Below are positions 32,063-36,242 of a stretch of DNA of 64,000 nt, one piece after another (position 1 is the stretch's first letter; each line of letters opens with the position of its first letter). The position numbers were made by a program, and so were the translations under genes. This stretch comes from Actinomycetota bacterium (GTDB lineage: Bacteria; Actinomycetota; Acidimicrobiia; Acidimicrobiales; Ilumatobacteraceae). The notes beneath the pieces are model-generated. The model searched no databases. It was not told the origin of the DNA and saw only the letters and a list, made by a program, of their open reading frames with translations. Location: positions 1-64,000 of the forward strand of contig CAUJET010000091.1 in NCBI GenBank assembly GCA_963169665.1, written 5' to 3'.

Positions 32063-32085
32063 GTGTCACACCCTCTTGCGAGGAT
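32063..32085 (+). promoter_or_regulatory. PafBC/RecA-NDp-like promoter of HNH gene
   Basis: GTGTCACAC (32063-32071), an 8-base spacer and GAGGAT (32080-32085) follow the architecture TTGTCRGTG-N8-TANNAT known for LexA-independent DNA-damage promoters bound by PafBC. The TGTCA core, spacer length and ANNAT part match; the outer bases differ. The -10 ends 7 positions before the GTG start. A near-copy occurs at 36016. Confidence 0.5.
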
Positions 32086-32091
32086 GGGGGT

Positions 32092-33459
32092 GTGAACGGT
32101 GGGGCGGACACTCACGAACATCTCGACGCGGTGTTGCGCGGGATCGATGTCGCGGTGTTGTTGCGTCATGTCACCGACCGGTTGCTCGAACACGGCGCCG
32201 AAGCTGCGGACGGTCTCGACGACACCGCCTTGCACGAGACCGTGGTGATCGTGCATCGCGAACGCTCACGGCTCGGGGTGGCGTTCGCGGAGTTGTTGGC
32301 GGAGTGGGACACACGCCGGATCTGGGAGTCCGACGGCTCCCGCAGCCCCGCCCACCGGCTGGCTCGCGAGACGAGGTCATCGGTCGGTGCCGCACGTGAG
32401 GATCTGCGACGCGCCCGACGTGTGCGGCACCTCCCGCTGGCGCGGGAGGCGATCGCGGCCGGCGTGTTGTCGCTCGATCACCTGGATCTTCTCGGTCACG
32501 TCAACACGGCCGAACGTCGGCATCTGTTCGCACGTGATGAAGCGCTCCTCGTGCGGAAGTGCAGCGAACTGTCGTACGCCGATGGTGCCCGGCTGGTGCG
32601 CTATTGGGCCGGTCACGCCGACGAGACCCTCGCCGACCAACGGGCTGCTACCCGACCCGATGACCGGGCAGACGATGACGCTGCGGCGGCGCCTGATGAT
32701 GCGAACGCGCCACCCGACGACGAGTACGAAGCGCACGCACCGACCACCGGGTCACGGTTGCACGCGTCGCGGACGCTCGACGAGGCGCTCGTGATCGACG
32801 GGACCCTCGACGCGATCGACGGCACCATCGTCGAGAACGAACTCGACCGGCTCGCGGACGAGATCCGCCTCGCCGACCGTGCCGCCGGCATCGACCGCTC
32901 ACCCGCACAACGCCGAGCCGCCGCACTCGTGGAGATGGCACGACGGTCCGCCACTGCACCCGAACACGGTCGCCGACCGCGACCGCTGTTCACCGTGCTC
33001 GTCGGCGAACGCAGCCTCGACCGGCTCTGCGAACTCAGCAACGGCATCGTCCTCACCCCCGCCGCGCTGCTCCCACACCTCACCGAAGCCGACATCGAAT
33101 CCGTCCTGTTCGACGGCCCCAGCACCATCGTCGCCGTCTCCTCACGGCGCACCTTCACCGGCGCCGTCAGACGAGCCGTCCAGGTTCGAGACCGACGCTG
33201 CAGACACCGATCCGACTGCGACGTCCCCGCCGACGACTGCGACGTCGACCACATCGTCCCCGCATCCAAGGGCGGACCGACCAGCCAGTTCAACGGCAGG
33301 TTGGAATGCAAGGTCCACAACCGCATCCACCACCTCCACGACCACGACACCGACCCCATGCCAGAACGGCCACTCGACCGACTCGACGAACTCCGGGCCA
33401 AGATCCGCTGGCGCTGCCGCAACGACCCCTGGTACCTCGACACAGACGACGACGCGTGA
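32092..33459 (+). CDS. DUF222 domain HNH endonuclease (13E12 repeat family type)
   Basis: The 455-residue protein has the long helical DUF222 domain (about 1-340) typical of actinobacterial 13E12-repeat proteins and a C-terminal HNH nuclease: RRCRHRSDCDVP, CDVDHIVPASKGG with His387, and FNGRLECKVHNRIHH. It should bind and nick or cut DNA; the biological role of this very abundant family is not known. A disordered acidic stretch with many Asp/Ala lies near 180-215. The start is GTG at 32092, leaderless by the -10 hexamer 7 positions upstream. The gene is not flanked by inverted repeats or other signs of a mobile element. Confidence 0.9.
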   Translation: MNGGADTHEHLDAVLRGIDVAVLLRHVTDRLLEHGAEAADGLDDTALHETVVIVHRERSRLGVAFAELLAEWDTRRIWESDGSRSPAHRLARETRSSVGAAREDLRRARRVRHLPLAREAIAAGVLSLDHLDLLGHVNTAERRHLFARDEALLVRKCSELSYADGARLVRYWAGHADETLADQRAATRPDDRADDDAAAAPDDANAPPDDEYEAHAPTTGSRLHASRTLDEALVIDGTLDAIDGTIVENELDRLADEIRLADRAAGIDRSPAQRRAAALVEMARRSATAPEHGRRPRPLFTVLVGERSLDRLCELSNGIVLTPAALLPHLTEADIESVLFDGPSTIVAVSSRRTFTGAVRRAVQVRDRRCRHRSDCDVPADDCDVDHIVPASKGGPTSQFNGRLECKVHNRIHHLHDHDTDPMPERPLDRLDELRAKIRWRCRNDPWYLDTDDDA

Positions 33460-33550
33460 ATCAGCCCGCCGCAGGGTGAAGACCCGACCTGGGACGATCA
33501 GGGTGTCGATGGGGCGACTCCTGCTGAGCTCGACGACCTCCGCCGGAACG

Positions 33551-35008
33551 TCAGTCCTGGCGGTCTCCCCACATGGTCTGACGCTCGCTGTCGATATCGG
33601 TCTCGAGCACGTCGAGCTGGTCGACGATCAGGCAGGACCGAGCCGGCAGATACGGGTTCCATCCCGGCATCGCTCCGTCCGGTCGACCGTCGCGGGCGAA
33701 CGTGGCCAGCACCGTCGACCATCTCGACGCAACCTCACGCACCTCGGCGAGCCTGGCGTCGTACAGCGCAGGGTCGTCGACGGGCTCCATCGTGTCGAAG
33801 ACGAACCCGAGGTCGGCTGCGTGGGTGACGCCGAGCTCCCCAGCGAGCGACCCGGTCGGCTCGACATCGAACCGGTACAGCCATCCGCCGGGCCCGGCCT
33901 CGCATGCCGCCTCTGCCACGCGGATCGCGGTCCGGCGGAAGTGATCGGTCCAGACCGCGGTGTGGATCTCGGTGGGGTCGTCGCCGAGCGCGACACCGAG
34001 CGCGGTGAGGTAGGTCGACGGGTCGCCGCCCTCGAAGGTTCCCGCTGCGAGTCCTTCGGCGATGAGCCGGAGCACCGCAGGTCGCATCCCGGACATCATC
34101 GACGTGAGCAACGTCCCCTCGTCCCGGGTCGTGCCGGCGATGATCGGGACACCGCGAGAACCGAGGGCTCGAATGGCCTCGACCGGGAACTGCGTGACGA
34201 CGGTGCCGTCCACGCAGCCGCCAGCGGTGAATCCGATGCCCTGCTGCAGCTCGAGGATTCGCTCCACCGGGAGTGCTCGCAGTCGCTCGGGCAGATCGAT
34301 CGGGTCGACCTCGAGGGTGCCGCCCAGGATCGAGACGACCTCGGGCGGCGCCGGCTGAGGCGGGCCGGCGCTGAGCACGATGGCGCGGTGGAACAGGCCC
34401 GCTGCCGCTGGGGCCCCGAGGAGCGCCAGGACCGACACACCACCGCCCGACTGCCCGAACAAGGTGACGTTGCCCGGGTCACCCCCGAATGCAGCGATGT
34501 TCGAGCGGACCCACTCGAGGGCGAGGATCTGGTCGAGGAAGCCGTGCGACGCCGATCCCGCACATGCCTCCCCGCACGGCGACAGATCCGCGAAGCCGAG
34601 CAAGCCGAGTCGATACCCGACCATCACGACCACCACGTCGTTCGCGCGGGCCAGCGGTGCCCCGTCGTACTCGTTCGCCGATCCGAACGCGAGGCCGCCG
34701 CCGTGGAGCCAGACCATCACCGGCCGGGAGCCGGCGAGCGACGGTGTGTACACGTTCACGCGCAGACAATCCTCGTCAACGATGCCTGGCGCCGGCGGCG
34801 CCCCGAAGGGTGTGGCCATGGGCGGTTGAGGTGGTCGAGGGCCGAAGTCGGTCGCGTCGAGCGTCCCGACCCAGGGCGCACGCGGCTCGGGACGGGCGAA
34901 GCGCCGATCCCCGACCGGCGCTTCGCCGTACGGGACCCCGAGAAAGCGGAACACACCATCGACGACGATGCCCTCCACCGATCCTGACTGTGTCATGGCC
35001 GTGGTCAT
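33551..35008 (-). CDS. type B carboxylesterase
   Basis: The 485-residue protein is a carboxylesterase/lipase family B alpha/beta hydrolase. It has FLGVPYGEAPVGDRRF at the N-terminus, the oxyanion hole WLHGGGLAFG, the nucleophile elbow FGQSGGGVSV (GQSGG in place of the common GESAG), TRDEGTLL with the acid residue and GVTHAADLGFVF with the catalytic His. It hydrolyses carboxylic esters. The ATG at 35008 overlaps the stop of the upstream phosphotransferase-like gene by one base (TGATG), so they are translated together; ATG at 34996 is an alternative. Confidence 0.93.
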   Translation of the reverse strand: MTTAMTQSGSVEGIVVDGVFRFLGVPYGEAPVGDRRFARPEPRAPWVGTLDATDFGPRPPQPPMATPFGAPPAPGIVDEDCLRVNVYTPSLAGSRPVMVWLHGGGLAFGSANEYDGAPLARANDVVVVMVGYRLGLLGFADLSPCGEACAGSASHGFLDQILALEWVRSNIAAFGGDPGNVTLFGQSGGGVSVLALLGAPAAAGLFHRAIVLSAGPPQPAPPEVVSILGGTLEVDPIDLPERLRALPVERILELQQGIGFTAGGCVDGTVVTQFPVEAIRALGSRGVPIIAGTTRDEGTLLTSMMSGMRPAVLRLIAEGLAAGTFEGGDPSTYLTALGVALGDDPTEIHTAVWTDHFRRTAIRVAEAACEAGPGGWLYRFDVEPTGSLAGELGVTHAADLGFVFDTMEPVDDPALYDARLAEVREVASRWSTVLATFARDGRPDGAMPGWNPYLPARSCLIVDQLDVLETDIDSERQTMWGDRQD

Positions 35009-35940
35009 CAGCTGCCGCTCCGCTCCTGTTCGTCGCTGGCCGCGATCAGACGTCCGAGACGTCCCGAGGCGCCCTCCATGCCGGCCACGTCCTCGCGGAA
35101 GGCCGCGTACTGCAGTTCCCCGAGGGCGATGTGCAGCTCGTACAGCGGCAGCAGCCCGTCGATGTCGTCGTCGGGGAAGCGCAGCCTGGCGAGGTCGAGC
35201 ACCTGGCGACGGTCGATCGCCGGGAACCAGGGGATGCAGTACACGATCCAGGCGATGTCGTAGAGCGGGTCGCCGGCGAGCGCGTTCCCCCAGTCGAACA
35301 CCGCGGTGATGGAACCGTCCGGGCCGATCAGGTGGTTGAGCAACAGGTCGGCGTGCACCAATCCGCGAGTGGCGGGGATCGCGTCGGAGCGACGAGCGAG
35401 CGCCGCACCGCCACGACGAAACGCATCGCTCGCGCTCGGGTGCGCCGACAGCTTGCGACGCCAGCCGACCAGTCGGACCTCGTCACGATCCGCCACCGAG
35501 CACAGGTACTCCGGCCACGAGGCGGCAGGGGCATCGGCCCCCGGGGCGAGCCAGATCCCGTACCCCTCGCCGGGCAGCTCCACGCGGCGGATCGCAGCGA
35601 GCACCTCGAACAGCCCCTCGATGGCCGCAGGGACCCGAGCGGTCTCGAGATCGGCGAGCTTCGTCCCGTGGTGGCGTCGGGTGACGACGGCGTGGCAGCC
35701 CAGCGCGTCGCCCATCTCGAGCACCTCGGGAACCGGCAGCCCGGGCTGTCGCCAGGTCGCGGCGACGCACTCCTTCTCGAAGTCGTCGCGTTGGTGGCCG
35801 ACGCGCAGCACCCATTCGTCCGACCCCGTCGCGAAGCCGTACGCGCTCGACCAACCGCCGCCCTGCAGCGTGACCAGATCGGCCACCGGACCGAAGCGCT
35901 CGGTCAGGAAGCGGTCGATCTGATCGAGGGTCGGCATCAT
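35008..35940 (-). CDS. aminoglycoside phosphotransferase (APH) family kinase
   Basis: A protein of about 310 residues with an APH/ChoK-type kinase fold. The catalytic loop is LVHADLLLNHL (HxDxxxxN with Ala for the common Gly) and the metal-binding DFG equivalent is FDWGNALAGDPLYDIAW. It probably phosphorylates a small hydroxylated molecule or an acyl-CoA-dehydrogenase-linked substrate rather than an antibiotic, since these folds are widespread in actinobacteria. The start is uncertain: ATG at 35940 or 35937 begins the recognisable domain, while ATG at 35970 would add 10 residues. It is coupled to the esterase. Confidence 0.82.
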   Translation of the reverse strand: MMPTLDQIDRFLTERFGPVADLVTLQGGGWSSAYGFATGSDEWVLRVGHQRDDFEKECVAATWRQPGLPVPEVLEMGDALGCHAVVTRRHHGTKLADLETARVPAAIEGLFEVLAAIRRVELPGEGYGIWLAPGADAPAASWPEYLCSVADRDEVRLVGWRRKLSAHPSASDAFRRGGAALARRSDAIPATRGLVHADLLLNHLIGPDGSITAVFDWGNALAGDPLYDIAWIVYCIPWFPAIDRRQVLDLARLRFPDDDIDGLLPLYELHIALGELQYAAFREDVAGMEGASGRLGRLIAASDEQERSGS

Positions 35941-36015
35941 CGATGCCGAGTCTGCACCAGCGCCGACCATCCGATGGGCGGATTTCCCGTGGCGCCCGGC
36001 TTCCGCCGATCGGTC

Positions 36016-36038
36016 GTGTCACACCCCTTCTGCATGAT
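36016..36038 (+). promoter_or_regulatory. PafBC/RecA-NDp-like promoter of 65-aa gene
   Basis: GTGTCACAC (36016-36024), an 8-base spacer and CATGAT (36033-36038), ending 7 positions before the ATG at 36045. Element sequence, spacing and distance to the start are the same as at the HNH gene, although the genes encode unrelated proteins. Confidence 0.55.
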
Positions 36039-36044
36039 GCGGGT

Positions 36045-36242
36045 ATGGCAACTCGTCACCGCAACTCCCGCACCGAGGCTCCCGAGCAGCTGTCGTTGTC
36101 GATCGACTCGCCGCTGCCCGTCCAGTTCCGGCTCGACCGCCGCACCCGCGAGCGTGGCCTCGCCCACATCGCCGAGATCCGTCGCCAGCTGGCCGAGCGC
36201 CAGGGCCTCTCCCCCGCCTGGGTGCTCGACCAGGCGGCCTGA
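36045..36242 (+). CDS. small hypothetical protein, 65 aa, possibly DNA-damage regulated
   Basis: The 65-residue product has a polar N-terminus, a QLSLSIDSPLPVQFRL stretch and an amphipathic, Arg-rich helix (RRTRERGLAHIAEIRRQLAERQG). I do not recognise it. The basic helix could bind DNA or a protein partner. The reading frame opens further upstream, but the -10 hexamer 7 positions before ATG 36045 makes this the natural start with no leader. Its promoter is nearly identical to that of the DUF222 HNH gene 4 kb away, which suggests shared control by the PafBC-type damage response. Converges on the luciferase-like oxidoreductase gene with a 15-base gap. Confidence 0.65.
   Translation: MATRHRNSRTEAPEQLSLSIDSPLPVQFRLDRRTRERGLAHIAEIRRQLAERQGLSPAWVLDQAA

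Follow-up and report, generated by a model that had tools for sequence, protein, structure and literature searches.

Two closely matching DNA elements in a 64,000-nucleotide stretch of an Ilumatobacteraceae genome (Actinomycetota, Acidimicrobiia, order Acidimicrobiales; assembly GCA_963169665.1, contig CAUJET010000091.1, positions 1 to 64,000 of the forward strand; hereafter the window, from the source genome) are very probably switches of the bacterial DNA-damage response, common to recA and many repair genes of the group. One precedes a gene for a DUF222-HNH nuclease and the other a gene for a 65-amino-acid microprotein. Comparative sequence analysis suggests that both are promoters of the PafBC type and that both genes are members of a larger regulon, a reading to which we assign a probability of about 0.8; its promoter component, taken by itself, is highly likely. 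PafBC is activated by single-stranded DNA (ssDNA) and redirects sigma-A RNA polymerase, with PafB contacting the -26 motif (PMC11804915); the mycobacterial consensus of its promoters is tTGTCRgtg-8 nt-TannnT (PMC5656591). The element described here is probably a class-level variant (the class probably being Acidimicrobiia) of this RecA-independent (PafBC, RecA-NDp) damage promoter, with TGTCACACCC replacing the mycobacterial TGTCRGTG.

Both window sites carry a TGTCA core and an N8 spacer, corresponding to the TGTCR core and 8-nucleotide spacer of PafBC promoters. A search of the window for GTGTCACAC-N9-ANNAT returned two matches, compared with a mean of 0.00 and a maximum of 0 in 100 dinucleotide shuffles; an earlier sequence-only reading of this DNA, which had reported two matching elements at 32063 and 36016, thus had positions and patterns right. 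With two mismatches allowed, the window gave 10 matches against 7.8 expected, which is no enrichment, and therefore only the near-exact form of the element is informative. The start codons (GTG at 32092 and ATG at 36045) each lie 6 nucleotides past the end of the -10 hexamer. A paralogue on contig C174 and the copy in a related genome (G001) are preceded by a site identical to site 1, with unrelated flanks, and site 2 lies within a block that is fully conserved in a same-genus genome, the sequence immediately upstream having diverged.

The same element occurs upstream of recA. A scan in which only TGTC, the spacing and ANNNT were fixed was applied to 23 recA loci of the order, 21 of which have a usable upstream region. 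It recovered TGTCACAC exactly in nine of the 21 (e.g., TTGTCACACCCCCTCCATAGGGT in G033 and TGTCACACCCTTTTCGTACGGT in the source genome) and a one-base variant in three (TGTCAGAC, TGTCACAG, and TGTCCCAC), for a total of 12. A LexA-type box, GAAC-N4-GTTC, is present upstream of recA in all 21. Mycobacterial recA is transcribed from a promoter pair, PafBC-dependent P1 and LexA-dependent P2 (PMC11804915, PMC5656591), and recA of these order relatives appears to share this dual arrangement.

Genome-wide searches point to a regulon that is large rather than limited to two genes. The source genome (5.84 Mb) contains 11 matches to TGTCACAC-N9-ANNAT against none for a reversed control, and 19 matches to TGTCACAC-N9-ANNNT against one; the complete genome of a relative (G026) has 34 against none, and 26 genomes of the order together have 212 against 30. 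In a sample of the phylum, the density of matches per Mb was 2.3 in the order (control, 0.39), 5.9 in three other genomes of the class (control, 0.39), and 0.70 in the remaining phylum (control, 0.21); the element is strongest in this class, yet present outside it. One or two of the 19 sites in the source genome (e.g., L006, which lies inside a gene) are probably chance matches. Genes behind the sites in the source genome include recA and those encoding an SRAP protein, an AlkB-like 2-oxoglutarate (2OG)-Fe(II) oxygenase, an HNH protein, six DUF222-type proteins, a DUF2786 protein, and others. In G026 they include recA, sbcD, lhr, genes for AddB-like and other PD-(D/E)XK nucleases and for an SSB-like protein, rpsF (which usually sits with ssb), and several DUF222-HNH genes; other genomes add genes for a radA-like protein, a UvrD-like helicase, RmuC, a DnaQ-like exonuclease, and a LysM protein. 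The sequence-only reading had taken the two window genes to form a small damage regulon by themselves. The findings at recA and at the relatives of the microprotein gene led to rejection of such a private two-gene regulon; the two genes are predicted instead to belong to a wider one, for which the source genome has at most about 19 exact sites and G026 has 34.

Start codons peak 6 to 8 nucleotides past the -10 box, with 48 start codons in this interval over 98 distinct sites, which would place transcription initiation at the start codon. At recA and in one DUF222 subfamily the sites are followed by leaders instead. A PafC homologue was found in all 26 genomes of the order; the best Protein Data Bank (PDB) match of PafC is PafC in the RNA polymerase-PafBC complex 7p5x (E 2e-29), and PafB of G001 and G026 match PDB entries 7p5x/6sj9, so that both proteins have solved mycobacterial complexes among their top matches. 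Differences in the recognition helix of PafB do not simply track the motif: the helix of G026 is mycobacterial-like, yet G026 uses TGTCACAC. Comparison supports the proposal that the sites are PafBC-like damage promoters, leaderless and with TGTCACAC as a lineage-specific form: the same or a one-base-variant element lies upstream of recA in the source genome and 11 relatives, exact sites stand before many repair genes, and PafBC orthologues are present.

These data suggest the following scheme, in which the mechanism is borrowed from M. smegmatis. Both sites would act as sigma-A promoters, with TGTCACACCC in the -26 region, an 8-nucleotide spacer after TGTCACAC, and a -10 box of the form NANNNT, and transcription would start at or beside the start codon, yielding leaderless mRNA. 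Upon DNA damage, ssDNA would activate PafBC and the housekeeping polymerase would then use these promoters, driving expression of the multicopy DUF222-HNH nuclease and of the 65-amino-acid microprotein, both appearing alongside RecA.

Several observations weigh against the promoter and regulon reading. The window -10 boxes, GAGGAT and CATGAT, fit NANNNT only and lack the T of TANNNT; the recA -10 box, TACGGT, fits TANNNT, and the first T is found in 52% of the 98 sites. The second half of the motif is ACAC, both at the window sites and in recA upstream regions of the order, and is unlike the mycobacterial RGTG; because the RGTG half is absent, we term the element a lineage variant of this promoter type and do not claim a fit to the mycobacterial consensus. 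Nine of the 21 recA upstream regions are without a close match, and the presence of a PafC homologue in every genome searched leaves no presence/absence contrast between PafBC and the motif. The earlier suggestion that sites be sought at named repair genes is borne out for recA and fails for imuB: no site was found upstream of imuB or dinB. This would be expected if these are LexA genes, and imuB is under RecA-dependent (LexA) control in M. tuberculosis (PMC8151990).

A regulator other than PafBC might control the repair genes through these sites, such as a different WYL protein or a factor resembling ClgR. The source genome encodes five WYL proteins, the motif half TGTCACAC is unlike TGTCRGTG, and an earlier proposal had assigned the mycobacterial P1 promoter to ClgR (PMC5656591). 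We regard this as unlikely, since the spacing, the distance to the -10 box, the TGTCR core, the position at recA, and the content of the regulon all match the PafBC promoter, and orthologues of PafB and PafC are encoded. Far less probable still is that the shared element is a by-product of DUF222 gene duplication, its match before the microprotein gene being a coincidence. Six of the 19 exact sites in the source genome do precede DUF222-type genes, and the copies in the window, on C174, and in G001 are identical over the 40 nucleotides from the site onward; however, the site also stands before recA and unrelated repair genes, and before almost every relative of the microprotein, although the coding sequences of these relatives have strongly diverged. 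Hitch-hiking with DUF222 genes was rejected on this contradiction.

The PafBC-type promoter resembles the mycobacterial RecA-NDp/P1 promoters in its TGTCR core, in the 8-nucleotide spacer ahead of a -10 box, in its pairing with a LexA box upstream of recA, in a regulon of repair genes, and in the accompanying PafBC genes. It differs in its half-site (TGTCACACCC in place of TGTCRGTG), in the first base of the -10 box, which is often C or G, in a start codon placed very often exactly 6 to 8 nucleotides past the -10 box, and in the large share of the regulon made up by DUF222-HNH genes. Our literature search found no paper that names both Acidimicrobiia and PafBC.

The second gene under this promoter encodes a member of what is, by sequence comparison, an order-wide microprotein family without a Pfam family. 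Six relatives from other genome records are 45-98% identical to it, and the promoter accompanies all six, with one or two changes in two of them. A profile search of 198 genomes of the order gave matches in 22 genomes besides the source, many of them weak (E up to 1e-3), with the promoter directly upstream in 21 of the 22 (exact or with at most three changes in ten bases). As the promoter stands beside nearly all relatives found by the profile, the promoter and protein evidence back each other. Reading from the promoter first recovered further members that the profile had missed (L034, L078, L213, and L230). The family of 33 comprises proteins of 45-107 amino acids that have in common QLx[LMFI] near the N-terminus, in most cases as QLxL[LIV], the core RLDxxTRxxGxxx[IV]AxxRxxL, and Ala-Ala at the C-terminus. 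Between the window gene and its G001 copy there are six synonymous codon changes and one nonsynonymous change. The microprotein has no significant relative in Pfam or PDB, tblastn against plasmids and phages gave no match, and no paper describing the family was found in the literature search. An AlphaFold2 model is disordered save for one helix (residues 32-53), with a mean predicted local distance difference test (pLDDT) score of 69, and such a mostly disordered model fits a protein acting through short linear motifs.

Two such motifs are candidates. The consensus for binding to the beta sliding clamp is Q-phi-x-[LM]-[FLI] or Q-phi-x-[LM]-x-[FLI] (PMC11139829), and this canonical motif, to which QLSLSI of the window protein conforms, occurs in 26 of the 33 members against 3 of 313 background proteins, the background being open reading frames of at least 300 amino acids from the same loci. 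The looser QLx[LMFI] is present in 33 of 33 (background, 5 of 313), and the protein ends in Ala-Ala in 32 of 33 (background, 10 of 310). QL served as a filter in one collecting step, and unbiased support comes from eight members whose collection did not depend on that filter: four profile matches confined to the core downstream of QL (L186, L193, L201, and L205) and the four promoter-side members named above, all of which have QL. From these patterns we give binding of the microprotein to the sliding clamp an even chance, and the odds that the Ala-Ala tail is a ClpXP degron fall just short of even.

Taken together, they lead us to propose, tentatively, an order-wide set of PafBC-induced leaderless microproteins that may bind the clamp through the N-terminal QLxL[LIV] and bring about their own removal through the Ala-Ala degron, as a self-limiting replication brake or a clamp-partner switch; this combined reading we hold to be somewhat less likely than not. 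The microprotein would occupy the DnaN pocket briefly after damage, slowing or re-routing replication, and would then be cleared fast by ClpXP; it could thereby brake replication, help polymerases to exchange, or act as a recruiter. Against this proposal stand the seven of 33 members that deviate at the last position of the clamp motif or at position 4, the relatedness of family members, which makes the counts nonindependent and inflates them, the loose alignment of the terminal tails, and the ease with which short linear motifs arise. That the microprotein is damage-induced but no clamp ligand, its QLxLL and helix contacting another partner (DNA, RNA polymerase, or a nuclease) and its Ala-Ala being neutral, is a substantial possibility, though also one short of even. 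Conservation is concentrated mostly in the helix RLDxxTRxxGxxx[IV]AxxRxxL, and the lack of any significant Pfam or PDB match agrees with this alternative; on the other side, QLx[LMFI] is kept throughout the family amid variable flanks, and the Ala-Ala end is nearly invariant, as expected of clamp ligands and ClpXP substrates.

The proposed clamp-binding microprotein can be compared with SocB of Caulobacter crescentus and RipA of Streptococcus pneumoniae, both of which target the pocket of the sliding clamp; SocB is cleared by ClpXP (PMC5422525, PMC9690074, PMC12795458). For the microprotein, clamp binding is a prediction. Those proteins are toxins of toxin-antitoxin systems, unrelated as a system, whereas the microprotein is a putative damage-regulon member with its own promoter, and no small antitoxin or adaptor gene of the SocAB type was seen beside its gene in the window. 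It shares the motif Q-phi-x-[LM]-[FLI] with the clamp ligands Hda, Pol IV, Pol V, and Pol III alpha, and the Hda motif likewise lies in a disordered N-terminus (PMC11139829). Unlike these ligands, the microproteins have no enzymatic domain, are 45-107 amino acids long, and end in Ala-Ala.

The nuclease gene has features of its own. An HNH-like pattern at the C-terminus, CDVDHIVP..N..HNRIHH, was read by eye from the sequence, the window copy having no Pfam HNH match at E 0.001; a clear HNH domain is present in the copy of another genome (G232, L261). The unit from promoter to about the stop codon (32063-33459 in the window), its C174 paralogue (L010), and the G001 copy (L098) are approximately 87% identical, beginning a few bases from the promoter, and both flanks are unrelated, so that promoter and ORF appear to behave together as a cassette that carries its own damage promoter. 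The DUF222 domain, HNH-like C-terminus, and multicopy occurrence are shared with DUF222-HNH nucleases of the REP13E12 type; window-type copies differ in having their own damage promoter and in that homology between copies ends at the promoter and stop codon. The neighbors of the microprotein gene in the window are an APH-family gene (35008-35970, minus strand) and a long minus-strand gene.

Features of the window and of the source genome that bear on the predicted regulon.
Feature	Position	Strand	Basis or remark
PafBC-type promoter site 1, GTGTCACAC-N8-GAGGAT	32063..32085	+	full sequence GTGTCACACCCTCTTGCGAGGAT
DUF222-HNH nuclease gene, 455 amino acids, GTG start, predicted leaderless	32092..33459	+	Pfam PF02720, E 1.1e-9
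PafBC-type promoter site 2, GTGTCACAC-N8-CATGAT	36016..36038	+	full sequence GTGTCACACCCCTTCTGCATGAT
Microprotein gene, 65 amino acids, ATG start 6 nucleotides past -10, predicted leaderless	36045..36242	+	
Putative beta-clamp-binding motif QLSLSI, residues 15-20	36087..36104	+	family motif statistics
Single helix predicted for residues 32-53, with the conserved core RLDxxTRxxGxxx[IV]AxxRxxL	36138..36203	+	AlphaFold2, pLDDT 92 and 86 in residues 31-50; alignments
Putative ClpXP-type degron, codons of C-terminal Ala-Ala	36234..36239	+	family tail statistics
pafC (source genome)	C173:11495-12418		immediately upstream, the C-terminus of pafB, truncated at the contig end

Several further observations were made during the searches. 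The RecA match is split near profile position 195 inside a single frame of more than 700 amino acids in G003, G032, and G033 (L169/L172, L170/L174, and L168/L173), and these are likely recA inteins. A LysM-type protein stands behind the promoter in three genomes (L091, L233, and L257; the LysM domain was found in L233 and L257), recalling Rv2719c of M. tuberculosis, itself a LysM protein. The Rv2719c operon has been reported to be PafBC-controlled in M. tuberculosis (PMC8151990). Cys-rich proteins of 66-69 amino acids with leaderless sites lie directly ahead of a QueG-like gene in two genomes (L228 and L252). A 105-amino-acid protein of the source genome (contig C39, L002:1180-1494) has no known family, a leaderless site, and an Ala-Ala end, and L253 of G004 has a similar start. 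A TGTCACAC site lies approximately 90-100 nucleotides ahead of a gyrB-like gene in the source genome (L007) and in G004 (L250). In G001 the promoter is doubled, 58 nucleotides apart, before one DUF222-type gene (C8:60834 and 60892; L099), and in G002 exact sites precede genes that resemble, by eye, DNA cytosine methyltransferases (L217 and L220).

The PafBC-type damage response is known chiefly from mycobacteria, and the comparative evidence indicates that another actinobacterial class uses it with an altered half-site. The pattern TGTCACACCC-N6-NANNNT with a start codon 6 to 8 nucleotides on may serve to predict damage genes in uncultured genomes. Clamp binding by the microproteins, if real, would tie the damage response of Actinobacteria directly to the control of replication, and the microproteins would then offer a natural template for clamp-targeting peptides.

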